The notes under the pieces: model-generated
What the model saw: only the letters and a program-made list of their open reading frames with translations
Told to the model about the DNA's origin: nothing
Database searches by the model: none
Shown here: piece after piece, positions 13,327 to 30,113 of the stretch
Layout: each line of letters starts with the position of its first letter
How positions within the stretch are numbered: the stretch's first letter is position 1
Translations under genes and position numbers: made by a program
From: Clostridiales bacterium
GTDB lineage: Bacteria; Bacillota; Clostridia; Lachnospirales; WQUN01
NCBI GenBank assembly: GCA_031271275.1
Contig: JAISWA010000014.1
Span: forward strand, 1-32,886
DNA: 32,886 bases
Reading direction: 5' to 3'

Positions 13327-16300
13327 TCAGCGCGGAACATATTTGTATGTTTTAATTTCATACGGTTTTATTTCCCACGGGGTTTCGGAACCGGCGGGGA
13401 TTTCGGACAGGACGCGCTCAAGCAAATCGCATTCGTAAATTTTTTCCGCCTTAAAACCGGCGCTGACGGTAAACTTCGCGTCCATATTAAACGCCTCGTA
13501 TAGCCTGACGATGATTCCGCCGCCGTCCTCGGCTTTTTTTACGCTTTCGAGAAAAACGTTCTCCGCGTCTGTCTGGAAAAGGGAAAACGCCGCAGGTCCT
13601 TTCCCCCGCCCGTTCAGCCAAACCGTAAACGGCGGGTCGTTGAGCTTATACCCTTCTTGAACCGTGCCGCCTTCCGCGAACCCTTTCAGATGCGGGAACA
13701 GGGAATAGGTAAACGTATGACGGCACCGGTCGGCTTCCGTGTTAGGATAGTCGGGGGATTTTAACAGGGTCAGCCGCAGGTTTCCGCCCGCAATATCGTA
13801 CCCGTACTTGCAGTCGTTAAGCAGGCTGACACCCCGGTCGCCCTGGGAGAGGTCCGCCCACTTGTGGCCGCAGACTTCGAAGCGCGCGCTGTCCCAGTTT
13901 GTGTTCCGATGGGTCGGTCTGGAAATATTCCCGAAGGGGATATCATAAACGGCGTGTTCGGAATGAATACTGACCGGGAATAAAACTTTGAGCATCACAT
14001 GGGTTTCCCGCCAGTCTATTACGGTGGCAAAATCGATACGGGGCGAGCGGGCGTACAGGATGATATCCTGCTTTACGCGGGATTGCATAAAGCTTTTTTC
14101 CACGCGCACCACGGTCCTGACCGGGCCGCTTTCAATAATTTCAACACGGTCCGCCGTGTTAAGCTCCCGCGTCTTTTCCTCAAAATGAGGCGCGATATCC
14201 CAGGCGTCGTTCCAACAATAGGGCAGGTCGTCGAAGGCTTGCAGCACATTTCCCCTGCCGCGCAAAACTTCGCGGCAGGAGCGTTTGTCGTAAAGGCTGT
14301 CGAGCGCGCCGGCGGCGTCTACGGTCACGCGGAAAAAAGGCGTTTCGAGGGTAACCGTTTGGTTGGCGGGGTCGCCGCTTGCGGATATTTTTTCGCCGTC
14401 GGGCGTTCCGGCGGCGCGTCTTACCGCCAAAGTTTTGTATCCTTTTGCGGGAATATTTTCCGCGTAAAAAATAATTTTGCCGTCATAGGTCTTTTGCGCG
14501 GGGCTGTCCCCGATTGTTGCCGAATCAAGCCCTTCCGGCGGGTTTTCAACCACCGCTTCCCCGGTGTAAGGGAAACTCAGCGCGTTAAACACCGCGCATT
14601 CTTCAAGGTTTCCGGTCGCCGGGCAACCTTCGGAGGAAAGAAAAGCGCGTTTCTTTTCGCTCCTTAGTATTGCCGCCGCCGCTTCTTTTAAAATTTCGCC
14701 CCCGTCCTTCAAAACTTCCTCATACTCCCTGCGGGAAACCTCATAAACCGCTTTAACGCTCGAGCCGGGCAAAATATCGTGGAACTGGTTAAGCAATACT
14801 TTTTCCCAGTTCTTGCGCAGGCGCTCCGCCGGGTATGCCGCGCCCGCCATTATTTCCGCAAGTACGGAAAACATTTCCGCGTCCTGGAGCAAAAATTCGC
14901 ATTTCCGGTTGTACCGTTTGTTCGCCGCCATCGTGGTATAGGTTCCCCGGTGGTATTCCAAATAAAGTTCCCCCGTCCAAGCCGGAAGCCGCGCGCCCGC
15001 CTTCGTTTCCGCCTCCGCCGCGCGGAAAAAATCCCCCGCCTTCCCAAAGCGTACAGTTGGGTTTCCGGGTATACCCCGCGCCATGCGCACGCCCGCCTCC
15101 AACATGTCCTCCGTCGGCCCGCCGCCCGCGTCGCCCCACCCGAAGGGGACCAACACATGGCTTGCGATATTTTTCTGCTTAAAGTCGTCCCACACTTCCT
15201 TAACGGGTTTTGGCCCCAGATACGCGGCGTGATGAAGGGTAAAGCACGAGAAAATCTCCGTGCCGTCAATCCCCCGCCACATAAATAAATCATAGGGCAT
15301 TTTGTTCGTGTCGTTCCAACTCAATTTGGTGGTGCCGAAATAATCCACCCCGGCGAGTTTTAAAATCTGCGGCAGCGAACCCGTAAACCCGAAACTATCC
15401 GGCAACCAAAGTATTTTTGAATCCACGCCAAATTCCTCGCGGAAAAATTGCTTGCCGTACAGCAACTGCCGCGCAAGAGATTCCCCCGACGGGATGTTGC
15501 AATCCGGCTCCACCCACATGGCGCCTTCGGGTTCCCATCGGCCCCCCTCGACTTTTTTGCGGACCTTTTCAAAAATCTCCGGGAAGTCCTCTTTCACGAA
15601 GCGGTAAACCAAGGGCTGACCGCACATAAATTGATATTCCGGATAAAGTTCCATCAATTCAAGGTGCGTGGTAAAAGTACGCGCCGCCTTTCGGCGGGAG
15701 TCCTCCACCGTCCACAGCCACGCCAAATCCAGATGGGTATGACCGGGGCACCAGGCGGTATAAGGCTCGGTATTTCCCTTCCCGTAAATTTCCCCCGCGA
15801 TCAGTTCCCGCGCTTCTTCCGCGGTGCGGTAAAAGGACGGGCCAAGAGGCTTGCGCATGTCCAAAAGATTGGCGGCTTCGTTCAGGGCGTTAAGCAGCAG
15901 ATGCCGGCGCTTGTTCTCCGGCGGAAGCAAAAGGGCGGCGTCGAGTACGGTTTTGATATCGTAGTACAAAGCTTGTGCGTCCCTGTCTTCGGAAATGATG
16001 TCGATTTCCATTCCCGTCAAAATTTCTTTTACGCCGGAAAATCCCTGAATACAAATATCAAAAATCTCCCCTGCCCTCGCGCTTGCGGAAAGCCGGACGG
16101 TTTCATGCCACAAGTCCATGCCCCGCTTCACCCTGCCGTTCACATAGACAAGGTACTGAGGCCCGCCGGGGTACCATTCCCCTTCCCTGCCGGTGCGTAT
16201 TTTAAACAACACCGGGCGGCGTTCAAGCTCAGGCGGCACGGTGTGGGAAAAACGGAACCAGCGTATACTATCGACCGTTCCCCACCGGTCGTAGCGGTCA

Positions 16301-16446
16301 AAGTCCCGCCAGTCGCCGCCCAAGGCGGAAATATCGTCCGTCCGCGCGTCTTGGTATAAACAGCCGGGCAGCCGCTCCACCGTCGGGTACAGGTATTTTT
16401 CCAACTCAAATAAAATTCTGTTAAGCCTGTCGGGAATCCAATCCAT
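13327..16446 (-). CDS. Glycoside hydrolase family 38 alpha-mannosidase, no signal peptide seen
   Basis: CPGHTHLDLAWLWTVEDSRRKAARTF (metal-binding HTHLD), GAMWVEPDCNIPSGESLARQLLYG, ILWLPDSFGFTGSLPQIL (nucleophile Asp context), LLNQFHDILPGSS. Confidence 0.95.
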   Translation of the reverse strand: MDWIPDRLNRILFELEKYLYPTVERLPGCLYQDARTDDISALGGDWRDFDRYDRWGTVDSIRWFRFSHTVPPELERRPVLFKIRTGREGEWYPGGPQYLVYVNGRVKRGMDLWHETVRLSASARAGEIFDICIQGFSGVKEILTGMEIDIISEDRDAQALYYDIKTVLDAALLLPPENKRRHLLLNALNEAANLLDMRKPLGPSFYRTAEEARELIAGEIYGKGNTEPYTAWCPGHTHLDLAWLWTVEDSRRKAARTFTTHLELMELYPEYQFMCGQPLVYRFVKEDFPEIFEKVRKKVEGGRWEPEGAMWVEPDCNIPSGESLARQLLYGKQFFREEFGVDSKILWLPDSFGFTGSLPQILKLAGVDYFGTTKLSWNDTNKMPYDLFMWRGIDGTEIFSCFTLHHAAYLGPKPVKEVWDDFKQKNIASHVLVPFGWGDAGGGPTEDMLEAGVRMARGIPGNPTVRFGKAGDFFRAAEAETKAGARLPAWTGELYLEYHRGTYTTMAANKRYNRKCEFLLQDAEMFSVLAEIMAGAAYPAERLRKNWEKVLLNQFHDILPGSSVKAVYEVSRREYEEVLKDGGEILKEAAAAILRSEKKRAFLSSEGCPATGNLEECAVFNALSFPYTGEAVVENPPEGLDSATIGDSPAQKTYDGKIIFYAENIPAKGYKTLAVRRAAGTPDGEKISASGDPANQTVTLETPFFRVTVDAAGALDSLYDKRSCREVLRGRGNVLQAFDDLPYCWNDAWDIAPHFEEKTRELNTADRVEIIESGPVRTVVRVEKSFMQSRVKQDIILYARSPRIDFATVIDWRETHVMLKVLFPVSIHSEHAVYDIPFGNISRPTHRNTNWDSARFEVCGHKWADLSQGDRGVSLLNDCKYGYDIAGGNLRLTLLKSPDYPNTEADRCRHTFTYSLFPHLKGFAEGGTVQEGYKLNDPPFTVWLNGRGKGPAAFSLFQTDAENVFLESVKKAEDGGGIIVRLYEAFNMDAKFTVSAGFKAEKIYECDLLERVLSEIPAGSETPWEIKPYEIKTYKYVPR

Positions 16447-16468
16447 ACTATCCGCCTTTACATAAAAA

Positions 16469-16496
16469 CCGGGGGCTGTTTCGCGGCAGCCCCCGG
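16469..16496 (-). terminator. Intrinsic (rho-independent) terminator downstream of the secreted duplicated-domain protein
   Basis: On the minus strand CCGGGGGCTG-ccgcgaaa-CAGCCCCCGG followed by TTTTT: 10-bp perfect GC-rich stem, 8-nt loop, T-tract. Confidence 0.85.
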
Positions 16497-16519
16497 CAGT
16501 TTATTAGAAAAAACAGGGC

Positions 16520-17872
16520 TCAAGGTTTCGGGTCGCCGGGTTCCGAAGCGGGGGTTTCCAATTCCTCCGCGGAAACGGGGGCCATTACCTCAAAGCTGCC
16601 GTCAAAGGAAACGTCCTCATAAGTCACCATGATGTCGTCCATCCGCACCGTGGGGGTTTCGGAATTCACGTCAACCAGTTCCATGGGGCGCATGATGAAA
16701 TAAATCATGTCGCCTTCCTCCACCTCGACGCTTAACTCCTCACTGGTCTGCATCCCGCCCGACAAACGGGTGAAGTACAAAGTTTCGTCATTTTTGCGGA
16801 TTTCCGCCGCGTAGGTGTTCCCCTCGTAAGGCTCGTATACGATGGTCCCCGATTGGAAATCGCAGTTGCTGAATAAAATATGCCGCCAGGGGGCGATGCG
16901 CAGGGTTCCGGTTTCCGGCGCTTTAAAAGCCGCCGCGATTTCGTAGGGCTCATTGGAAAGGATGTCGTAACCCGCCTGCGCGCCTACGCCGTTCCAATCG
17001 AACAGGGAATAATAAATCGCGTCTTCGTCCGGGTTGGGTGAAGCCTGCCAGTTAGCGCCCCATTCGGGATAATAATTCAGTTCCGCCCAGTCGCCGTCCC
17101 CCAAGCGCTGCATGTAAAACCATTCCGACCCCTGCTCCTCGGCGCTCATAAAGGTATCGTGCAGGCTGTAAATCCCCTCGCCGCCGTAACTGACGGGCAG
17201 GTTGAGCAGGATATCCGCCGACGGGCGGGCTTCCTCGCCATAGGTGACGGACAGGTCGTTGATAAGCACGTCGCCTTCGGCGTCTTCGTGGGGTTCCACG
17301 ATAAACCAAATCTCATCGCCCTTTGCCACGTCCACGGTAATGGCTTCGCTGCCGACGACTTCCGTGGGGCTGGAGTCGCCTCTGTAGAGTTCCTCGCCGT
17401 TTTTCGTAATAACGGCGGTAATCCCGCCTTCTTCCTTCGGCTTAATCACCCACGCGCCTTCGTCGTCCAGGTAGATGTCCCCGTAAGTGGAAAGCATATG
17501 CCGCCAGGGCGCAATCGTAACGGTTCCTTTTTTAGGCGCGGTATAACGGGCGGCAATGCTGTAGCGTTGGCCGTCCATCCAACCGGGGTACGCGATGGCT
17601 TTCCCTTCCGACAGGTAAAGGGAGAAATAAATCCCGTCGCCGTCGGGCGTTTCGGAATACTGCCAGTTGTCGCCCCATTGGGCGGTGTAGTAAAGCGCCT
17701 GCCATTCGCCTTCGTCCACGCGGGCAAGGTAATTCCACTCCGGCCCCTGTTCCGTCGCCCCGGGCAAAGCTTCCTCAAGGGCGTAGGTCGCCCCGGCTTC
17801 GGACGCCGGCACGATTGCGGTCACGGAAAATACCATCACCGCCGCAAGCAAAAGACTTAAAAATTTCTTCAT
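16520..17872 (-). CDS. Secreted protein of unknown function with two tandem copies of a ~180-aa domain
   Basis: Signal peptide MKKFLSLLLAAVMVFSVTAIVPASEA. Copies begin EQGPEWNYLARVDEGEWQALYYTAQWGDNWQYSETPDGDGIYFSL... and EQGSEWFYMQRLGDGDWAELNYYPEWGANWQASPNPDEDAIYYSL..., each containing GT(V/L)xIAPWRH(M/I)L. Confidence 0.85.
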   Translation of the reverse strand: MKKFLSLLLAAVMVFSVTAIVPASEAGATYALEEALPGATEQGPEWNYLARVDEGEWQALYYTAQWGDNWQYSETPDGDGIYFSLYLSEGKAIAYPGWMDGQRYSIAARYTAPKKGTVTIAPWRHMLSTYGDIYLDDEGAWVIKPKEEGGITAVITKNGEELYRGDSSPTEVVGSEAITVDVAKGDEIWFIVEPHEDAEGDVLINDLSVTYGEEARPSADILLNLPVSYGGEGIYSLHDTFMSAEEQGSEWFYMQRLGDGDWAELNYYPEWGANWQASPNPDEDAIYYSLFDWNGVGAQAGYDILSNEPYEIAAAFKAPETGTLRIAPWRHILFSNCDFQSGTIVYEPYEGNTYAAEIRKNDETLYFTRLSGGMQTSEELSVEVEEGDMIYFIMRPMELVDVNSETPTVRMDDIMVTYEDVSFDGSFEVMAPVSAEELETPASEPGDPKP

Positions 17873-17927: not shown

Positions 17928-18869
17928 TCATCCCTTAACCGAGCCTATCAGCAAGCCCTGCGTAAAATATTTTTGCAAAAAGGGGTACACGATGATAATC
18001 GGCAGGGTGGCGACCATTACCGCCGCCATTTTCATCGTCTCCGACGGCATGATTCCGCCGGACTGTATCACCTTGACGCCGCCTCTGGCGCTTGCGGTCA
18101 CCTGGGTGTTCGTCAGCACCTTCCGCAGCAAGAGCTGCAGGGTCGTCAAAAATTCGTTGCGGGTGATAAAAATGAGCGCGTTGTACCACTCGTTCCAATA
18201 ACCCACGGCGGTGTACACCACCATGGTGGCGAGTATCGGTTTGGAAAGCGGCAGTATAATCCTGAAATAGACGGTGAAATCGTTTGCCCCGTCCAGTATG
18301 GCGCTTTCCTCTAAACTTTCCGGCATTGCCATAAAAAAATTGCGGATGATAATCATGTTCCAGATGGAAATCGTGCCGGGGACAAACAACGCGAAAAACG
18401 AATCGAGCATCCCCAACGTTTTAACCACCAAAAAATACGGTATCAGCCCGCCGTTAAAGAGCATAGGGATGAAAATGAAAACCGTAAGCGCCACGCGGTA
18501 CGGCAGGTAGCGTTTGGAAAGCACATACGCGCCCATCGTGGTAAAAAAAAGGCTGTTGACCGTGCCCGCCACGGTAAGAGCCGCCGTAACCAGGAACGCG
18601 TTCGTAAACTGATTGCTTGAGGAAAACAAATAATCATAAGCAAACAGCGTAAAATTGTCCGCCCACAGGCGGAACCCCTTCGCGGCGATTTCCGTTTCGG
18701 GCGTAAGCGAAGCGATGAGCATAAGCCAAAAGGGCAGGATGAACAAAAGCGCCAGTAAAATCATCACCCCGTAATTAAAAACCGTAAACCACGCCGGAAC
18801 CCTGTTGGCTTCAAACCTGCGCCGCCGCCGCCCCGCGGCAGCCGGGACGTTTGCGTTGCCGTTTACCAT
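17928..18869 (-). CDS. CUT1-type carbohydrate ABC transporter permease (LplC/YtcP-like)
   Basis: Multiple TM helices and the permease EAA-type loop ESLEESAILDGANDFTVYFRIILPLSKPIL. ATG at 18869 (ATGGTAA overlap, purine-rich RBS) preferred over the ORF-track start 18890. Confidence 0.92.
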   Translation of the reverse strand: MVNGNANVPAAAGRRRRRFEANRVPAWFTVFNYGVMILLALLFILPFWLMLIASLTPETEIAAKGFRLWADNFTLFAYDYLFSSSNQFTNAFLVTAALTVAGTVNSLFFTTMGAYVLSKRYLPYRVALTVFIFIPMLFNGGLIPYFLVVKTLGMLDSFFALFVPGTISIWNMIIIRNFFMAMPESLEESAILDGANDFTVYFRIILPLSKPILATMVVYTAVGYWNEWYNALIFITRNEFLTTLQLLLRKVLTNTQVTASARGGVKVIQSGGIMPSETMKMAAVMVATLPIIIVYPFLQKYFTQGLLIGSVKG

Positions 18870-19816
18870 ATCGCTTCGCCCCCCATCCATTTGACAATCC
18901 GGTTGGTACCCATGACCAAAACAAAGCCGATCACCGACTGGAACAGCCCCATTGCCGCGCCGATGGAAAACAAGCCGCCCTGCAAACCTTTCCGGTAAAT
19001 ATAAAAGTCGAGCACGTCGGTGTTGGCGTGGAGCGGCGCGTTTTGACCTATCAGCGCGAAAATCTGCCCGAAGTCGCCGCTCATCATGCTCCCGATGTTT
19101 AAAATAAACAGAATGGACGCGGTGGGCATGATACAGGGTATGGTGATGCTAATAACCTGCCGCCACCGCGACGCGCCGTCCACCACCGCCGCCTCGTAAA
19201 GGGTCGGGTCGATTCCGGAAATAGCCGCCAGATACAGGATGGAACTGTAACCGATCCCTTTCCAAATGCTGCTGCCCACCAAAATCGAGCGCCAGAACTC
19301 GCCCCGCACAAACCACTGCACCGGCTCCAACCCCAAGCCTTTCAGCACGCCGTTGACCAAGCCGAAGTTCGTGTTCAACAGCGCGTAGGAAATCCCGCTG
19401 ATGACAATCCACGAAACAAAGTGCGGCAGGTAGGAAATCGTCTGGATGGCGCGCTTAAAGAGCTTGCCGCGCAATTCCGTAAGCAGCAGCGCAAAAATAA
19501 CCGGCGCGGGGAACCCCCACAAAAGCTTCAGCACATTAATCCATACCGTGTTAAAAACCAACCGCCCGAAATCCGGCGCGGAAAACATGGTCCTAAAATT
19601 ATCCAAGCCGACCCAGGGGCTTTCAAAAATGGGAACCCACGGTTGGTAACGGGTAAAAGCAATCAATATCCCACTCATGGGTATGTAATTGAACAGCGTA
19701 AGGCAGATGATTACCGGGACAAACATCAGGTAAAGCATCCAATACTTTCGGATACTGGATATAAAGCCCCTTTTCCTCGCGGCGATACGAACTTCGTTTA
19801 TGCTTCCGCCTGCCAT
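18863..19816 (-). CDS. CUT1-type sugar ABC transporter permease (LplB-like)
   Basis: YWMLYLMFVPVIICLTLFNYIPMSGILIAFTRYQPW, EAA loop DPTLYEAAVVDGASRWRQVISITIPCIMPT. Confidence 0.93.
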   Translation of the reverse strand: MAGGSINEVRIAARKRGFISSIRKYWMLYLMFVPVIICLTLFNYIPMSGILIAFTRYQPWVPIFESPWVGLDNFRTMFSAPDFGRLVFNTVWINVLKLLWGFPAPVIFALLLTELRGKLFKRAIQTISYLPHFVSWIVISGISYALLNTNFGLVNGVLKGLGLEPVQWFVRGEFWRSILVGSSIWKGIGYSSILYLAAISGIDPTLYEAAVVDGASRWRQVISITIPCIMPTASILFILNIGSMMSGDFGQIFALIGQNAPLHANTDVLDFYIYRKGLQGGLFSIGAAMGLFQSVIGFVLVMGTNRIVKWMGGEAIW

Positions 19817-19860
19817 TACACACCTCCCGCGTTAAAATAAGTTTTCCGTTGACCCGCCGT

Positions 19861-21420
19861 TTACCTGCCGTTCGCGGCTTTCCATTCCTCGTGCTGGCGG
19901 CGGATTTCCGCGTAAGGCCCTTCCACGCTCGCCTCGTATTCGTCCACCATTGCCTGCCATTCGGAAATCGGGCGGACGCCCGCGGCGATATTGTAGTTCT
20001 CCACCCAGATATCGATGGAGTTAAAGTCCCCGACCTTTTCCCAGTCGATGACGAAACCCTTCAAGGGGTTTACAAACATGGGAAGGCTGCGGTAATAATC
20101 CTGCGTCGCCTCCACGTCGTAGCTGAGGTCGGTGCGCTTAAGCGCGTAGCCCTCATAAGACAGCGGCATGTACACCGTATCGTAACCGCGTTTGGACTCG
20201 TCCCCGCCCGCGCTGTCGGGCAGTTTCCAACCGTCCTCGCCGTCGCGCACGTAGTTGGCACCGTCTATTCCGTACTTGCCCAGGATATAATTTTCGCGGT
20301 TTGCCGCAAGCCAGTCAAAGTATTTCACCACCAGTTCGGGGTGTTTTGACATGGTGGTGACGTAAGCGATCATGCCCGCGCCGCTGTTTTCCGGCAGGGC
20401 GGCATCGCCCATCGGGCCGCTCAATACCGGCATGATTTCCAGTTTGCCGTCGGGGTCCTGGGCGGTCAATTGGGGCTGATAGCGGTCAATGTTGCGAGGG
20501 TCGGTGAACAGCACGCCCACTTTGCCCGTAATCAGCCACTGGTCATACTGGGATTCGTCCGTCACGAGGAAGTCCGGGTCGTACCAACCGTTGTCCAACC
20601 AACGCCGGTACATTTCCAGAAACTTAACATAGTCGGGGTGCTCGTAGGCTTGGATAAACACGCCTTCGGGGGATTCGGTCTCCCACCCGGTTTCGGCGGT
20701 TACGCCGCCGGAAATCGCGCTTGCCATGGAGGGTTCCAAAAACCACGGCTTACCCGCCACCGGAACCACGTCGCCCCTGTCCTTAAACGCCGCGAGTACG
20801 GTTTCAAATTCCTCTACGGTGGTAGGCATTTCAAGCCCGGCGTCTTCCAACCAGTCTTGACGGATGATGGCGCCGTTCCAGTACACGCGTTCATAGGAAG
20901 GGATCCCCAAAATTTCGCCCGACGGGTTTTTTACGTTTATCCACGCGTCCTCGGGCATCATTTTACGGATGTTTTGCCCGTACTGCTCAACCAACGCGCC
21001 AATAGGAGCCACAAGCCCCGGCTTGGAAATATCCACGCCGAAGTCGTCGGTGTCGCCGATAAACCCGTCCAACTGGTCGCCGGAGGCAAGCAAGGTGTTT
21101 TTCTTTTCCTCAAAGCCGTCGCGGGGGATGATAATCCAATCCAACGTGACGTTTAGGTCCTCTGCCATTTGTTTTTCCAACTCCGCGCGGACGGCGTCCA
21201 TGCCTTCGGGCGTGGAGGTGGCGCTTTGGAAGGGGTAAAACAAAACCAGTTTTGCGGGCGGTTCTTGAACCGCTGCGGTGGTAGCCGCGGTGGTCGCGGC
21301 GGTTGCCGCCGCTTGGGTGGTCGCCTGCGTTGCCGTTCCTGTTCCGCCGGAGCAGGCGGCGAGGGCAAACATCAAAACCAAACACAGGGACAGGACTTTG
21401 CTGCAGTTTTTGAACGTCAT
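19861..21420 (-). CDS. Extracellular solute-binding lipoprotein (LplA-like)
   Basis: Lipobox LAAC in MTFKNCSKVLSLCLVLMFALAACSGG, Ala/Thr linker, then SBP-like sequence. ATG at 21420 has a GGGAGAG RBS; an upstream ATG at 21465 overlaps the nucleoside hydrolase stop. Confidence 0.92.
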   Translation of the reverse strand: MTFKNCSKVLSLCLVLMFALAACSGGTGTATQATTQAAATAATTAATTAAVQEPPAKLVLFYPFQSATSTPEGMDAVRAELEKQMAEDLNVTLDWIIIPRDGFEEKKNTLLASGDQLDGFIGDTDDFGVDISKPGLVAPIGALVEQYGQNIRKMMPEDAWINVKNPSGEILGIPSYERVYWNGAIIRQDWLEDAGLEMPTTVEEFETVLAAFKDRGDVVPVAGKPWFLEPSMASAISGGVTAETGWETESPEGVFIQAYEHPDYVKFLEMYRRWLDNGWYDPDFLVTDESQYDQWLITGKVGVLFTDPRNIDRYQPQLTAQDPDGKLEIMPVLSGPMGDAALPENSGAGMIAYVTTMSKHPELVVKYFDWLAANRENYILGKYGIDGANYVRDGEDGWKLPDSAGGDESKRGYDTVYMPLSYEGYALKRTDLSYDVEATQDYYRSLPMFVNPLKGFVIDWEKVGDFNSIDIWVENYNIAAGVRPISEWQAMVDEYEASVEGPYAEIRRQHEEWKAANGR

Positions 21421-21461
21421 CGTAATCTCTCCCATTATTTTATTTTGCGCGGCAAGAGCGC

Positions 21462-22319
21462 TCATTCTTTTACCGTCTCAATCAGCCGTTTCCGGAAAAG
21501 TTCCGGATTCACTTCCGTTGCGATTCGTACCTCCGCGCCGTTTTCTGTTTCGGTCAGCGCTCCCCGGCGGCTCCGGTCGCACAGTTCCACGGACACCCGC
21601 TTCTTTTCAAAGGCGATCACATCGTCCCAAAGCAGCGCGCCCACCGCCAACGGGTCGTGAAGTACCGGGAGGTAGTGTTCCCTTGTAAAGTCGCGCATCA
21701 TTTCATACAGCAGCCGTTCCTTTTTCCCGCCGTGCGCGAAAGAATCCACTTCGGCCTGCGTAAAGCGGCACAACTCCGTTACGTTTAAGCCGACGATACT
21801 GACCGCTGCGCCGGAATTAAGAACCGTGACGGCGGCTTCCGGGTCGCAGAGGAAGTTCCATTCCGCGCGGCCGTCCCCCGGGGAACCGCCCATTAACATG
21901 ATTCGGCGGCCTTTGGCGATTCGCGGCGCCGCCAACATTGCGGCGGCGAGGTTGGTCAGCGGCCCGATTGGCACAAGCGTCAGTTCCGGGTCGTCCTCGC
22001 ATAAACGGATGATAAACTCGGCGGCGCGGTTACGCTCGTCGATAAATACAGGGGAAGCGCCCGACCTTTCAGCTTCCGTGTCCCCGCTTTGCCCCCAACT
22101 TCCAATCAGCGGCTTTTCCGCCCCAATCGCCACGGGGATATCCTTCCGCCCGTACACTTCGAGCATGTTGGACAATATCCCGTGCCGCCACGCGTTGCCG
22201 AGGTACACAAGCGATATTCCGGCTACGGAAATCTCCGGAGAACTGAGCGCAAGCGCAAGGGCAATCGCGTCGTCCACATCGCCGCCTATGTCCGTGTCAA
22301 TCAGAACCCGCGTTTTCAT
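21462..22319 (-). CDS. Inosine/uridine-preferring nucleoside hydrolase family protein
   Basis: N-terminal Ca-binding motif VLIDTDIGGDVDDAIALALAL, LTLVPIGPLTNLAAAM, MGGSPG..AEWNFLCDPEAAVTVLNSG, HDPLAVGAL. Confidence 0.93.
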   Translation of the reverse strand: MKTRVLIDTDIGGDVDDAIALALALSSPEISVAGISLVYLGNAWRHGILSNMLEVYGRKDIPVAIGAEKPLIGSWGQSGDTEAERSGASPVFIDERNRAAEFIIRLCEDDPELTLVPIGPLTNLAAAMLAAPRIAKGRRIMLMGGSPGDGRAEWNFLCDPEAAVTVLNSGAAVSIVGLNVTELCRFTQAEVDSFAHGGKKERLLYEMMRDFTREHYLPVLHDPLAVGALLWDDVIAFEKKRVSVELCDRSRRGALTETENGAEVRIATEVNPELFRKRLIETVKE

Positions 22320-23704
22320 TTCCCCGAATAGATCAAGTCAATCGCCGCCTTGTGCTCCGGGTTAAGCTGTTCCGCGATGGTGCTTGCCGGGGTGTTGCCG
22401 TCAAGCAGGTTTGCCACGGTTCCGGTAATCCTGTCGATGTTTTCCGTGGCTTTGTCAAAGGCGTAAACCATTTCGCTGGCGGGGTCGTTGTAAATCATGT
22501 CGAAATACTCCTGGCCAATCAAATTGGCTTCCAGTTCATTCCCTGCCGTTGCCCAGTTTTCGTTCAGCATACGCATGAAAGTCACCGCGCCTTCCGGGTT
22601 CTTCGCGCCGTTGGGTACCGCCATCCCCTGAGGCATGACCACCACCGGTTTTTCCACGGCGCTGTTGGGGCCCTTGGGGTACGGGACCATTCCGATGTCA
22701 AAGGCGAACTCGTTGTTGCCGTATTCCACGCCGTCGATAAAGGCAAGGTTGCCCACCTCAAAATAGTCGAACATGGTGTCGTTTTTTGCCCAGGCGGACT
22801 GCGGCGCGCTTGACCATGTGCGCATCCAGTCCAACGTGTCAATCATCGCCTGGTTGTCAAAACCGGAAACCGCCGTGCCGTTTACCGTGTCCACGTCGAT
22901 AAAGCTGGCGCCGTTCGCCACAAGCAGGCGGCTCATGCCCTCGCCCTCCCACGAGCCGTAGCCCATGGACTCCGCTTCCCCGTCCGTATAGCGGGTGGTC
23001 GTTTTAATCATTTCGGCGAATTTGTCAAAAGTCCACTCGCCCCGCTTGTAAAGTTCGTCGGGCATTTCCAGGCCGTACAGGTCAAGCAGGTCGCGGTTAA
23101 ACACAAGGGAAGTCAGGTAGGGCTTCCATGGTATGGCGTAAGGCACGCCCTTCCAACTGAACAGTTCCCGGTCCACGTCCCAGAACGCAAAGTCGGAATC
23201 CGTTACGTAATCTGAAAGCGGCATGATAGAGCCTTGGAAAATCATGTTGTGCATGACCCTGTCGTAAACCTCAATCAAGTCCGGCGCCTGCCCCGCCGCC
23301 TGAAGTTCCGCCATGCGGGCGAGCATACTGTTCCATTCCACGTACTCAATATTGACCGTGCCGCCGTATTTTTCCTCAAAAAGCGGCTTCGCCTCCCACA
23401 CTCCGTCGAAAAGGTTGGGTGCGCGTACCTTTTCCGTTTTGTAGTTCCTTTCCGAACGCCAGTAAATAATGTGGAGGTCCGGGTTGCTTAGCGCGTCGGG
23501 CAGCGCTTCCGCGGCGGCGGCTTCGGAAGCGGCGGCTTCCGTTGAAACGGCTTCCGTTGCGGCGGCAAGGGTTGTGGCGGCAGTGGCGGGTTGAGTCCCT
23601 CCGCCCACCGCAGGGGGAATATTTGCCGCCTCGCTCCCGCATGCCGCCGCGGAAAGCAGCAGCATGGTCCCGAGCGCCCCGCTCCATATCCTGTTCAGTT
23701 TCAT
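22316..23704 (-). CDS. Extracellular solute-binding lipoprotein (family 1)
   Basis: Lipoprotein-like N-terminus MKLNRIWSGALGTMLLLSAAACGSEA, Ala/Glu/Thr linker, VNIEYVEWNSMLARMAELQAAGQAPDLIEV..., downstream of two permease genes. Confidence 0.92.
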   Translation of the reverse strand: MKLNRIWSGALGTMLLLSAAACGSEAANIPPAVGGGTQPATAATTLAAATEAVSTEAAASEAAAAEALPDALSNPDLHIIYWRSERNYKTEKVRAPNLFDGVWEAKPLFEEKYGGTVNIEYVEWNSMLARMAELQAAGQAPDLIEVYDRVMHNMIFQGSIMPLSDYVTDSDFAFWDVDRELFSWKGVPYAIPWKPYLTSLVFNRDLLDLYGLEMPDELYKRGEWTFDKFAEMIKTTTRYTDGEAESMGYGSWEGEGMSRLLVANGASFIDVDTVNGTAVSGFDNQAMIDTLDWMRTWSSAPQSAWAKNDTMFDYFEVGNLAFIDGVEYGNNEFAFDIGMVPYPKGPNSAVEKPVVVMPQGMAVPNGAKNPEGAVTFMRMLNENWATAGNELEANLIGQEYFDMIYNDPASEMVYAFDKATENIDRITGTVANLLDGNTPASTIAEQLNPEHKAAIDLIYSGK

Positions 23705-25690: not shown

Positions 25691-27970
25691 TTATTCAATG
25701 ACCACATACCCCTTGGCAGGGATTATGCCGCCCCCGTATTCCGCTTCCTCGCCGCCGTAATTGCACACCACCGTCAGCCGCCCGCCGTATTCGGTGACGC
25801 TGATCGACCCTTCCCTTTTATGGGCGGTGACGGTCTCACCGGAAACTTTTGAAAGCACCGCGTTTATTTCCGCGTAATCCCGGGCGGCTTGCTCCGCCCA
25901 CCGCGCATAACCCGCGCTGAACAAATAATCGCTACGGGAGCCGATTAATTCGTCCTCGTTTTCAAACACCCAGGAGAACATGGGCGACGCGCCCGTCTCA
26001 AGGGCTTTGAGCTTCATTTCCCCGGGGTTGGAGGAAAGGTTGGCGGCGTTAAGCGCGTAGTTAACCCGCCCGTGGAACACAATCTGCCAGAAAGGAACTT
26101 CCCTGTCATAAATGTCCAACCCGCTTGAACGGGCGGGGGCGTCCACAATATGGTCGGCGTACACCGCCGCGTAGGCGTTGCCGCCGTTTAGCATCAAGGG
26201 TACGCCCCCGGTTTTCTCAAGTTGGGACGCGAACAGTTTGGCAACTTCGTCCCGTTTGATACCGTCGGACGCCAGTTCCGAATACAGCGTGTCGCCGATG
26301 GAATCCAACGCCGGGTACCCGTAACCGGCTTCGGAGAAATTCCCCCAGTATTTATCAAAAAATTTTTCAATACGCTGCGGGCGAACCAGATACCAAGGGT
26401 CGTACCGGCTGTCAGCCGACGAGTTCGCGAGGGAAAACGCGTACTGCTTCTGGGGCGTGCGGGCGATGGTTCTGAGGGCGTCAGACAAAACCCAAAAGCC
26501 GCCGCCTGTTTTGTAAGCGTTAAGCGGTTCGTAGGTCAGGAACAAACTCCCGCCGTTTGCCTCAAGGGTTGATTTAAGGGAGCGCAAACCCTTTTCGCCG
26601 CCCAGGGAAGCGAGGGGCTTCGGGTCGGTGGTCAGTTTGCCGAAGTAACCGTCCCGCTGCCAGTAGTTGTATTTAAGCTGTATGTTGCGAACGCCGAGGT
26701 CGGTCAGTTCGTTGACCGCCGCCTCCGCCTTTGAAAAGGAAGCCGTGGGGATTACCGTGTCGGCGGGGATGCCGAAGCGGGGTTTTGTTTTGACGATATG
26801 CCCGTACACGTCGAGATAAAAAGGGATGTCGGTGTTGGGCAAGGGCTGCCCCAAGCCGAGCGTATGGCGGTAGGCTTCCGCCATGTCCGTATAATCCGAC
26901 TTCCCGTGGGGCAGAAAGGTGTATTCAATTTTATAATTATTCGCGAGGTCGGGGTAAACTTCGGGGAAGCTCTCCTGCTTTTGCTCGAATCCCTTGGTCA
27001 GCATCCGGATGTCCGCCCAGTCGCGGTAAGCGTAAGTGGCGTAGGCCATGTTAAAGCCGCTGCCCATTCCCCCCGACTGGGCGTACAGCGTGGCGCGCGC
27101 CGCGCCGCCGGTTATCACCGCCAAATAGCCGTCGTCGTTAAGCTTTACGCCCCACAGGGGAAGGTTCACGGCTTCGGAAAGGGTCTTTTTGCTTTTGTAC
27201 TGTTCGGTGCTTGCGGCGGTGCGGTCGCCCGTGCCGGCGTTAAAGCCGTATACGTCGGCTTCCTCCAACTTGTCCGCGGAGGATTTGTTGTTGTTGAAAT
27301 CAATCAGCGCGCCCGCGCCGTCGGGAATCAGGATATACCCTTCGTCTTCGGGGGAGCCCGCGCCGAAGGAGGGCAAAATCGAAACGTTCGTCAGCCTGCT
27401 TGTGCCGTACTCAACCACTTCGCCGTTCAATAATTCCGCAGTCAGCCCGGTGTCGGTCAGGCTGTATTTTACGGGAACCATAATCTGCGGGCGTTGGAAG
27501 TCGTATACCATAATCAGCCCGTCGTCCGTCAGTTTGTAAGCCGCCGTACAGTTGGAGGCGAAGTCGGCGTAGCGGGTCTCCACCGGCGGGGCTTCCGGCT
27601 CGGTGTAGACATTGGCGTCGATTAACAGGCGGGAATTTAAAAGCTGCAGGTTAAACCCGGAACCCCAGTCGTTCTCCCTGCCTTCCGGGTTTGAGAACCA
27701 TGTGCGCCCGGAACGGGAATCTTCTATATAAAACTCGCCCGTGGAAAAATCCGCGTACAGGGTCAGCGCGCCTTTTTCCAAGGCTTTATGGAAACCTCCC
27801 CCGGCGGCTGCGGCTGCGCCGTCGGACTGCCTGACATACCCTGCGCTGTCGTCGGCTAAAACGGCGCGGCGCAGTACGACACCGGCGGAAACGGCAAAGC
27901 CGATTGCGAGAAGCGCAAATAAAAGTCGTTTCATCATATCGCCGCCTTTCCGGGGTTTTTGTTTCGTCAA
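25691..27970 (-). CDS. DUF5696-like secreted/anchored protein, glycosidase-like central region (true start may be near 27937)
   Basis: N-terminal hydrophobic segment MMKRLLFALLAIGFAVSAGVVL; EGYILIPDGAGALIDFNNNK; LPLWGVKLNDDGYLAVITGGAA; ITDLGVRNIQLKYNYWQRDG-type segment (ELTDLGVRNIQLKYNYW); YEPLNAYKTGGGFW. Family name from recalled resemblance and context. Confidence 0.72.
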   Translation of the reverse strand: MTKQKPRKGGDMMKRLLFALLAIGFAVSAGVVLRRAVLADDSAGYVRQSDGAAAAAGGGFHKALEKGALTLYADFSTGEFYIEDSRSGRTWFSNPEGRENDWGSGFNLQLLNSRLLIDANVYTEPEAPPVETRYADFASNCTAAYKLTDDGLIMVYDFQRPQIMVPVKYSLTDTGLTAELLNGEVVEYGTSRLTNVSILPSFGAGSPEDEGYILIPDGAGALIDFNNNKSSADKLEEADVYGFNAGTGDRTAASTEQYKSKKTLSEAVNLPLWGVKLNDDGYLAVITGGAARATLYAQSGGMGSGFNMAYATYAYRDWADIRMLTKGFEQKQESFPEVYPDLANNYKIEYTFLPHGKSDYTDMAEAYRHTLGLGQPLPNTDIPFYLDVYGHIVKTKPRFGIPADTVIPTASFSKAEAAVNELTDLGVRNIQLKYNYWQRDGYFGKLTTDPKPLASLGGEKGLRSLKSTLEANGGSLFLTYEPLNAYKTGGGFWVLSDALRTIARTPQKQYAFSLANSSADSRYDPWYLVRPQRIEKFFDKYWGNFSEAGYGYPALDSIGDTLYSELASDGIKRDEVAKLFASQLEKTGGVPLMLNGGNAYAAVYADHIVDAPARSSGLDIYDREVPFWQIVFHGRVNYALNAANLSSNPGEMKLKALETGASPMFSWVFENEDELIGSRSDYLFSAGYARWAEQAARDYAEINAVLSKVSGETVTAHKREGSISVTEYGGRLTVVCNYGGEEAEYGGGIIPAKGYVVIE

Positions 27971-30063
27971 ATCCGGAACATCAGTTCGCTGAAAATGGTG
28001 TAGAAGAACATATAAAGCTGTTGGAACAGGCTGTACAGCAAAAAGATAAAGAACAGGATAGCCGCCGCCCCAACCGCCGTAAGCGCCACGTTGGCGACCA
28101 CTAGCTTAAAGCCGAGCCGGTGGGTCTGGAATATCCCCATCATCAACTCAACCGCCGACCAACCGATTCCAAACACGCTGATAAATTGCAGGAACACGCC
28201 CATCTCCGCCGAGACTAAATTAGACGCGGCGATAACCGCCAATTGGCACAGTATGTACGGCGCAAGGGAATATGCAAGCGTGATGAAAAGCTGCCGGAAG
28301 GTAGCCTCGCTTGGCAGCAGGGACGACACCGCGTAATTGGCGGCCAGTACCAACGCAAACCCGCCCGCCGTTACCATGAAAACGGAAACGACGGAAAATT
28401 TGTCCGGGTTGCTCGCGTTAAAAATAAACCCGGTCAACTGCGCGTTGAAAACCGCCGTCAGAAAAAACAGCCCCACCATGGCTGCCCCCAACGGGGCGGA
28501 ACCCTTTCCCGACCACTTTACCGCGTCAAACCCCGCCGCCGGGTTCTTCATACAGCTAAGGCAAAAACGCAGTTCCCTGACGCACCGGGTCAGGACGGTT
28601 TCTTTTTTTGCCCCGCCCCGTTCCGGTTTCGGGCGGAACCGCCGCCATAACTTCAGCATAAGCGGCGACAGCGCCAACAGCAGCGCCGCCGTAAAAAACC
28701 AACCGAAATTCCCGCGCATAAAAATCAGGCTCTGTTCCGAGAACGCGTCCGAATACCCCTGCCGGTCGCCCGCCAGTTTGAAGTAGTACAGGGATTGCCC
28801 GTAGTTTTCCAATTGGTAGTACGCCTTGCCCAGTCCGGTATACCCGAGCATGTAGTTGGCGTCGTCCCGCAGCACCCGCTCCCAAAGGCTGATATCCTCC
28901 TGATAGCGGCCCTCGTTGTACAGGCGCATGGCGTCGTGTACGCCCCTGCCGAACTCCGTCAGGGAAAACAGGGTGATACTGCGCTTGCTTTCGTCCAAAA
29001 CCCACAGCACGTCCCCCACGCTGATAATCGCCGAAGGCCGCGAAAACAAACCGAGCTGCGCGCCAATTCCGCCGAAGGCGAACATCAGCCGCCCGTTTTT
29101 GTCGCACTGGTAAATCACGCCGAGCACCGCGTCGCACATGGTCATAACCCCGTCGCCGTCTACGGTGACGTCGGTAAACGCCGCGTTTTGAAACCAGTTC
29201 ATACTGGTTTTGGGAAGGACGTTTACGCCGAGGGGGTTCAGCTTGCGCAAAAGCTGTTGGTTATTGGCGCGGTAAATATCCTGAGCGGTAAGCCCGCTTG
29301 TCACGTCGGCGGTAGTGGTGACGGTGGCGTAAATAAAATTTGTTTCATCTATGTAGAGGTTGGAGTATTCGATGGGGACAAAGTTTTCCATCTTGCGGCG
29401 GGCTTCCTGTGTGACGATTTTTTTCCACGCTTGCAGCGCCAACCGCCCCAAGGTCATTTCCACATGGTTGGCTCCGTAGTAATTGATAAAGCTTCCGTCG
29501 GCGTCCAGGCAGTAAATCCCCTCGAACACGCCAAACGCCTGCACATACATTTTCCCGTAACTGTCCACGACTATTTTGGACGGCCGGTAGTTGGTTTCGC
29601 GGGTAATCAAATCCGACTGGGGCGCTCCGAAAATATTTTCAATGCGGCCCCCGCTGTCGGACTTGATAACCGCGCCGCCGTCAAAGTCGCAGACATACAG
29701 GTCGCCGCCCGGCGTGACGTAAATGCCGGTAAGCCCCGCGGGGGCGTAAGGTTCGCCGTTTAAGGTAAACTGGATTGCGCGGATGATTTCAGCCTGTTCG
29801 TTCAGCACCCAAACGCCGGAGGTTCCCACCAGGTAAATTTCATTTTTGCCCGCGTGATAAAAAAGGTCGCGGGGGTTTTCAAAACCGGTCACGGCGCGGG
29901 CGGGCAGGTAACCGTTCGGCGAGGGGACGGCGTTGCCCCATTTGTCCACGTTGTAGGTGGCGTAGGGCGCTTCGGTCATACGAGAGGAGGCGGGAACCGT
30001 TTGGCAGAAAAACAGCATAAATACAAACGCCAACGCCGGTACTTTGAACCATTTACCTTTCAC
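27967..30063 (-). CDS. Multidomain membrane protein: signal peptide, NHL-like beta-propeller, TPR-like segment, C-terminal Yip1-like membrane domain
   Basis: Repeated propeller-like strands (GLTGIYVTPGGDLYVCDFDGGAVIKSDSGGRI; PSKIVVDSYGKMYVQAFGVFEGIYCLDADGSF; FTDVTVDGDGVMTMCDAVLGVIYQCDKNGRLMFAFGG), TPR-like RLYNEGRYQEDISLWERVLRDDANYMLGYTGLGKAYYQLENYGQSLYYFKLA, then several TM helices. Confidence 0.8.
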   Translation of the reverse strand: MKGKWFKVPALAFVFMLFFCQTVPASSRMTEAPYATYNVDKWGNAVPSPNGYLPARAVTGFENPRDLFYHAGKNEIYLVGTSGVWVLNEQAEIIRAIQFTLNGEPYAPAGLTGIYVTPGGDLYVCDFDGGAVIKSDSGGRIENIFGAPQSDLITRETNYRPSKIVVDSYGKMYVQAFGVFEGIYCLDADGSFINYYGANHVEMTLGRLALQAWKKIVTQEARRKMENFVPIEYSNLYIDETNFIYATVTTTADVTSGLTAQDIYRANNQQLLRKLNPLGVNVLPKTSMNWFQNAAFTDVTVDGDGVMTMCDAVLGVIYQCDKNGRLMFAFGGIGAQLGLFSRPSAIISVGDVLWVLDESKRSITLFSLTEFGRGVHDAMRLYNEGRYQEDISLWERVLRDDANYMLGYTGLGKAYYQLENYGQSLYYFKLAGDRQGYSDAFSEQSLIFMRGNFGWFFTAALLLALSPLMLKLWRRFRPKPERGGAKKETVLTRCVRELRFCLSCMKNPAAGFDAVKWSGKGSAPLGAAMVGLFFLTAVFNAQLTGFIFNASNPDKFSVVSVFMVTAGGFALVLAANYAVSSLLPSEATFRQLFITLAYSLAPYILCQLAVIAASNLVSAEMGVFLQFISVFGIGWSAVELMMGIFQTHRLGFKLVVANVALTAVGAAAILFFIFLLYSLFQQLYMFFYTIFSELMFRI

Positions 30064-30113
30064 CGCTCCGCCTCCTTCCTTAAAAAATTGCTCCGCCCGG
30101 CTTTTGCGCCGCG

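Follow-up and report, generated by a model that had tools for sequence, protein, structure and literature searches.

The window, by which we mean the whole stretch of 32,886 nucleotides analysed, encodes a 698-aa protein in which an NHL beta-propeller, a TPR-like segment, a transmembrane helix and a Yip1 domain are fused. The protein belongs to a cassette whose nine components are inherited together; very probably it is a functional, hitherto undescribed element of machinery for plant-fibre sugar uptake. The reading that we favour, with a probability of roughly 0.55, is that it acts as a membrane-anchored accessory scaffold or hand-off subunit of a double CUT1-type importer of hemicellulose oligosaccharides. 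The features on which the following account draws are collected in Table 1.

Table 1. Features of the cassette and of the fused protein in the window, in the direction of transcription
Feature	Position	Strand	Basis or remark
SBP1, C-terminal part only (truncated at the contig end)	31942..32886	-	
Permease A1 (UgpA/MalF-like), EAA loop	30989..31897	-	
Permease E1 (UgpE/MalG-like), EAA loop	30114..30983	-	BPD_transp_1
Shine-Dalgarno AAGGAAGGAGG	30071..30081	-	Strong, 7 nt upstream of the GTG start
Fused NHL-propeller/TPR/TM/Yip1 protein	27967..30063	-	ORF, Pfam, AlphaFold2, Foldseek
Signal peptide, residues 1-26 MKGKWFKVPALAFVFMLFFCQTVPAS	29986..30063	-	Hydropathy; model N-terminus
Six-bladed NHL beta-propeller, residues ~36-368	28960..29958	-	AlphaFold2, Foldseek, NHL motifs of relatives
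Conserved inter-blade helical insertion, residues 205-225	29389..29451	-	Model helices, 121-sequence alignment
Short TPR-like helical segment and capping helix, residues 370-451	28711..28956	-	AlphaFold2; Pfam sub-threshold
TM helix, residues 453-476, then a basic loop on the cytoplasmic side, up to 489	28597..28707	-	Model, hydropathy
A7 tract near the fusion point	28603..28609	-	Comparison with split ortholog
Yip1 domain (modelled bundle, residues 490-697)	27973..28596	-	PF04893 E=3.1e-8; AlphaFold2
DUF5696 protein: N-terminal membrane helix and GH129-like domain	25691..27970	-	PF18952 E=2e-149; AlphaFold2, Foldseek, profile match
Permease A2, EAA loop	24692..25654	-	
Permease E2, EAA loop	23738..24688	-	
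SBP2, solute-binding protein	22316..23704	-	SBP_bac_1 E=4e-19; conserved cassette position
Strong intrinsic-terminator-like hairpin	16468..16497	-	Consensus scan only

The gene for the fused protein starts with GTG, and there are no DNA repeats of note within it. An AlphaFold2 model calculated from an alignment of 96 rows has a mean pLDDT of 91.7 and a pTM of 0.85; at its N-terminus, where hydropathy gives a hydrophobic stretch at residues 5-26, it has low confidence and a short helix. Hydropathy also marks a single transmembrane segment at residues 452-473, which is followed by KLWRRFRPKPERGGAKKE, and several more from about residue 521. A preliminary description of this DNA had seen a signal peptide, propeller-like repeats, a TPR-like segment, a single transmembrane segment, a basic loop and a multi-spanning domain resembling Yip1, and Pfam, hydropathy and AlphaFold2 between them recover every one of these, with both the propeller and the Yip1 fold predicted with high confidence (AlphaFold2, Foldseek). 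The architecture shown by the predicted model is thus that of a propeller and TPR segment fused to membrane helices.

Foldseek placed the NHL domains of TRIM71, TRIM2 and Thin at the top of its matches in the PDB (E ~1e-13, probability 1.00) and also matched PknD and the six-bladed designed "Pizza6" propellers; the count of six blades is our own reading of the DSSP strand list of the AlphaFold2 model. Pfam NHL models score below the cut-off in the window copy, which is diverged, and above it in relatives, where the NHL motif DTGNNRI is present. Between blades there is a conserved insertion, modelled as two helices (residues 205-216 and 219-225), that bears the family motif W(R)..T..QR, then P.E. 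Across 121 sequences W213 is conserved at 86%, T218 at 80%, Q221 at 79% (the window copy has Ala here), R222 at 87%, P230 at 97% and E232 at 89%. The likeness to the NHL-repeat proteins TRIM71/TRIM2 and the PknD sensor domain lies in the six-bladed fold, whereas the cassette propeller lacks a RING, kinase or RNA-binding context, is continued by the TPR-TM and Yip1 parts, and bears the conserved insertion of two helices. For the TPR-like segment, helix pairs are modelled and TPR_11 gives E=0.008, with all Pfam TPR models remaining below the gathering score in the window copy and in its relatives. The Yip1 match of Pfam covers residues 505-673 (34.1 bits against a gathering cut-off of 28.6), in a region modelled as a multi-spanning bundle.

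In relatives the propeller-TPR-TM protein (~500 aa) and the Yip1 protein (~210 aa) are mostly encoded by two overlapping or abutting genes, an arrangement missed when the window was read by itself; the window copy is a fusion of the two. In the nearest ortholog (genome G053, 69% identical) the propeller gene ends at the site of the A7 tract, and a separate Yip1 gene overlaps it by 11 nt. We considered a programmed frameshift at this tract and find it unneeded, because in the split ortholog the Yip1 gene starts from an ATG of its own within that overlapping arrangement. Assembly error as the sole cause of the fusion was also rejected: at the former junction of the two genes the window has no start codon, and fusions are seen repeatedly in further lineages. 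On the NHL tree of 121 sequences the fused or split state changed at least six times, and three of these changes are forced by well-supported branches. Because the same two neighbours have been fused repeatedly, a "Rosetta stone" sign, this pattern suggests that the NHL-TPR-TM and Yip1 parts work in contact.

The cassette as a whole consists of SBP1, the permease pair A1/E1, NHL-TPR-TM, Yip1, DUF5696, the permease pair A2/E2 and SBP2. The first eight follow one another in a fixed order, which is that of this list, and SBP2 lies at one end. The preliminary description had correctly placed the fused gene between a permease gene upstream and the DUF5696 gene downstream; its importer neighbours are likewise present, but where one importer had been seen the cassette has two permease pairs and two SBPs. 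Relatives of SBP1, which is truncated in the window, are ~970-1000 aa long and carry CBM35/CBM6-like modules N-terminal to the binding domain. All four cassette permeases keep their EAA loops. The cassette encodes no ATPase gene; elsewhere in the genome, outside the operon, there is an OB_MalK protein (G000:C7), and we infer that this MalK-type ATPase serves the cassette importer. SBPs, paired permeases with EAA loops, and a MalK/MsmX-type ATPase in the genome are the parts of a CUT1 importer.

Other genes lie on the same strand downstream of the cassette. A third importer (window 17928-21465) comprises SBP3 and permeases E3 and A3, and adjoining it is an inosine-uridine nucleoside hydrolase (21462-22319), apparently on one transcript with the cassette. 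The last gene before the terminator-like hairpin (16520-17872) encodes a 450-aa protein with a sub-threshold Expansin_C match only. Judging from the sequence, the hairpin is likely the 3' end of a transcript that contains the cassette and the third importer. Beyond it, adjoining the operon, is a GH38 alpha-mannosidase gene (13327-16446), the only glycan-enzyme gene of the window itself; GH38 is also found beside the cassette in one other locus (L031).

We sampled the cassette in well over a hundred bacterial gene clusters; among its carriers are Lachnospiraceae, Oscillospiraceae, Paenibacillaceae, Bacillaceae, Treponema and a Dictyoglomus MAG. Across genomes the tie to ABC importers holds: the core set was present in all 63 genome-contig loci with full flanks, drawn from Bacillota, Spirochaetota and Dictyoglomota, 60 of them counted by script and three (L093, L102 and L116) added by manual reading. 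Two of the script's misses, L093 and L102, are attributed to an over-long ORF of the propeller gene that runs back over permE1. The third, L116, has the same parts in a permuted order, with A1/E1 after SBP1. In that locus (L116:16673-21298) a GH10 xylanase and an F5/8 domain are naturally fused to the cassette SBP1 in one chain of 1542 aa.

Another set of 41 loci, which includes the window, contained 34 full cassettes, four that end at contig edges and three that are partial. Among the partial loci, L024 is without SBP1 and its cognate A1, L040 and L054 are without DUF5696, A2 and E2, and L040 is also without SBP1 and A1; these are draft contigs, on which either misassembly or real loss would account for the gaps. 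In L024, the closest relative, a repeated intergenic sequence that may be misassembly (L024:7560-8245) stands where SBP1 and permA1 are absent. Within the class, 63 of 293 genomes have the full-length NHL protein and every one of these 63 also has DUF5696, which lies directly downstream of 85 of 86 NHL genes, the sole exception being at a contig break. With SBP2 left aside, the pairwise-distance matrices of the cassette parts show correlations of r 0.86-0.96, as is expected of any vertically inherited operon. Conservation is highest in the permeases of pair 1 (median identity 0.61/0.56) and lowest in SBP2 (0.24), a difference that may reflect a role of SBP2 in setting specificity. The membership of the NHL-Yip1 protein in the cassette is well supported, and co-occurrence and gene order rule out a gene that merely lies beside an importer.

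The DUF5696 partner proved to be GH129-like by AlphaFold2, Foldseek and profile matching, a relationship that had gone unseen in the preliminary description. With its model (pLDDT 89.3), Foldseek ranked GH129 enzymes highest, ahead of GH101, GH36 and GH31, and the sequence profile reaches GH129 structure chains at E=1e-10, so that the likeness to GH129/GH101 glycosidases is one of fold, for which the TM score by target reaches 0.73, and of significant profile similarity. DUF5696 has a GH129-like fold but, by the remote profile alignment, does not retain the active-site acid: the Asp of LHLDGW in GH129 NagBb, which is among the residues changed in mutant 5wzq and is here taken as an active-site candidate, is mostly Gln, Asn, Ser, Leu or Thr in DUF5696, and the other candidate active-site positions in that alignment show no invariant acid. 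Because this Asp is mostly replaced, DUF5696 is probably a glycan-binding pseudo-glycosidase, and possibly represents a widespread family of them.

The genes around the cassette point to hemicellulose, a context missed in the preliminary description. Recurring neighbours in ~119 loci, with family names taken from one Pfam-scanned representative per neighbour group, were GH26 with CBM35 (27), CBM65 (15), GH10 (14), GH43 (14), GDSL (9) and GH130 (6), as well as DUF624 (12), response regulators (21) and LacI (18); at least one of the glycan families was present by 57 of the loci, or about half. The flanks contain mannan (GH26/GH130) or xylan (GH10/GH43) genes, and these split cleanly on the NHL tree, where the GH26 and GH10 contexts require 1 change against 11.9 when shuffled. 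Most likely, going by these neighbours, the system is specialised by clade for fragments of beta-mannan or of xylan.

How might such a protein serve the importer? Of the roles suggested in the preliminary description, a scaffold for the importer is the one best supported by the evidence. Nothing supports an envelope-stress adaptor; the sole mention of Yip1 in a PSP survey is that the HAAS domain has a clan similarity to it. As a scaffold, the protein would place its propeller and TPR segment, with DUF5696, outside the membrane, and its Yip1 bundle would be packed in the membrane beside the permeases; in this genome a single chain unites these two membrane parts, which as a rule are separate and translationally coupled. 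This non-catalytic scaffold would keep SBP1, SBP2, the GH129-like DUF5696 and the two permease pairs assembled. Mannan- or xylan-derived oligosaccharides would be captured and passed by SBP1 and SBP2 to the permeases, and a shared MsmX/MalK-type ATPase, encoded elsewhere, would power them. Here we infer the mechanism, contacts, substrate and hand-off, as well as the topology beyond the positive-inside loop. A stronger form is possible, and we offer it tentatively: the NHL-TPR-TM/Yip1 scaffold would clamp both CUT1 importers, both SBPs and the pseudo-glycosidase into a single membrane supercomplex.

Three other roles have to be weighed against a scaffold. The protein could be a factor for assembly or quality control, its Yip1 bundle and TPR segment inserting, pairing or stabilising the four permeases and the large SBP1 and taking no part in transport. 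In eukaryotes, Yip1-domain proteins span the Golgi membrane several times, and early work linked them to vesicle budding, according to the available part of one account (PMC6682643). The NHL-TPR-TM and Yip1 genes also sit exactly between the two permease pairs. We nevertheless regard an assembly factor as unlikely, since it leaves unexplained both the large conserved extracytoplasmic propeller and the tracking of substrate type with the NHL tree, and ordinary CUT1 importers need no such dedicated factor to work. A sugar sensor, which had also been proposed, could use the propeller to detect SBP-bound or free glycan and, by way of the TM/Yip1 part, inform a regulator or the ATPase and thereby gate uptake or expression. 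That Foldseek matches the extracellular NHL sensor domain of PknD, and that response-regulator/AraC or LacI genes flank many loci, would fit, yet these regulators are near a minority of loci only (21 and 18 of ~119), and the protein has no cytoplasmic signalling domain, just a basic loop of ~13 residues and short tails. With nothing that supports it specifically, we consider a sensor quite improbable.

Least of all do we expect an enzyme, that is, a propeller acting as a lactonase, lyase or hydrolase on the glycan before import. A weak SGL/gluconolactonase similarity in one relative and a streptogramin lyase among the Foldseek matches of the 698-aa protein hint at such activity, but the positions at least 75% identical across the 121 sequences include no His and only one Glu, and the best structural matches are non-enzymatic NHL domains.

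Carbohydrate ABC importers are textbook three-part machines. The cassette resembles those of the CUT1 type (MalFGK/UgpAE, MsmX-served) in its combination of an SBP with two different EAA-loop permeases and in its glycan-utilisation context, and MsmX-served importers of Gram-positives likewise have operons without an ATPase gene. It differs from CUT1 importers in having two complete permease pairs and two SBPs, and an SBP with CBM-like N-terminal modules. To our knowledge, the three extra fixed parts (NHL-TPR-TM, Yip1 and DUF5696) occur in no described CUT1 importer. A literature search, whose scope left out most subscription papers and all bioRxiv preprints, found no paper on DUF5696 and no description of the cassette or of NHL together with a sugar ABC importer and Yip1; nor is the cassette described in the available parts of work on loci of related bacteria for beta-glucan, xanthan and xylan. 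The occurrence of this cassette, with its two permease pairs and three unexplained fixed partners, in Lachnospiraceae of the gut and rumen and in Paenibacillus, Treponema and Dictyoglomus suggests that a common plant-fibre uptake route includes components that have seemingly never been assayed. For DUF5696 and a bacterial branch of Yip1, two "unknown" families, it also yields a role that can be tested.

A precedent for a propeller that serves an ABC importer is AztD of the AztABCD zinc importer, a beta-propeller encoded with its importer that, in the part of the report available, hands its zinc ligand to the SBP (PMC6689063). AztD differs from the cassette protein in being a zinc-binding propeller for a metal importer, for which the same part of the report suggests no TPR, TM or Yip1 (PMC6689063), and it is absent from the sequence and fold matches listed for the 698-aa protein. 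The SusCD-type glycan importers of Bacteroidota offer an analogy only, as a dedicated cassette for cell-surface capture and uptake of plant polysaccharide fragments; there is no homology between the two, and the present cassette is ABC-driven and occurs mainly in Gram-positives and a few spirochaetes. The supercomplex, if true, would be an ABC-driven Gram-positive counterpart of the SusCD-type machine, for large hemicellulose fragments.
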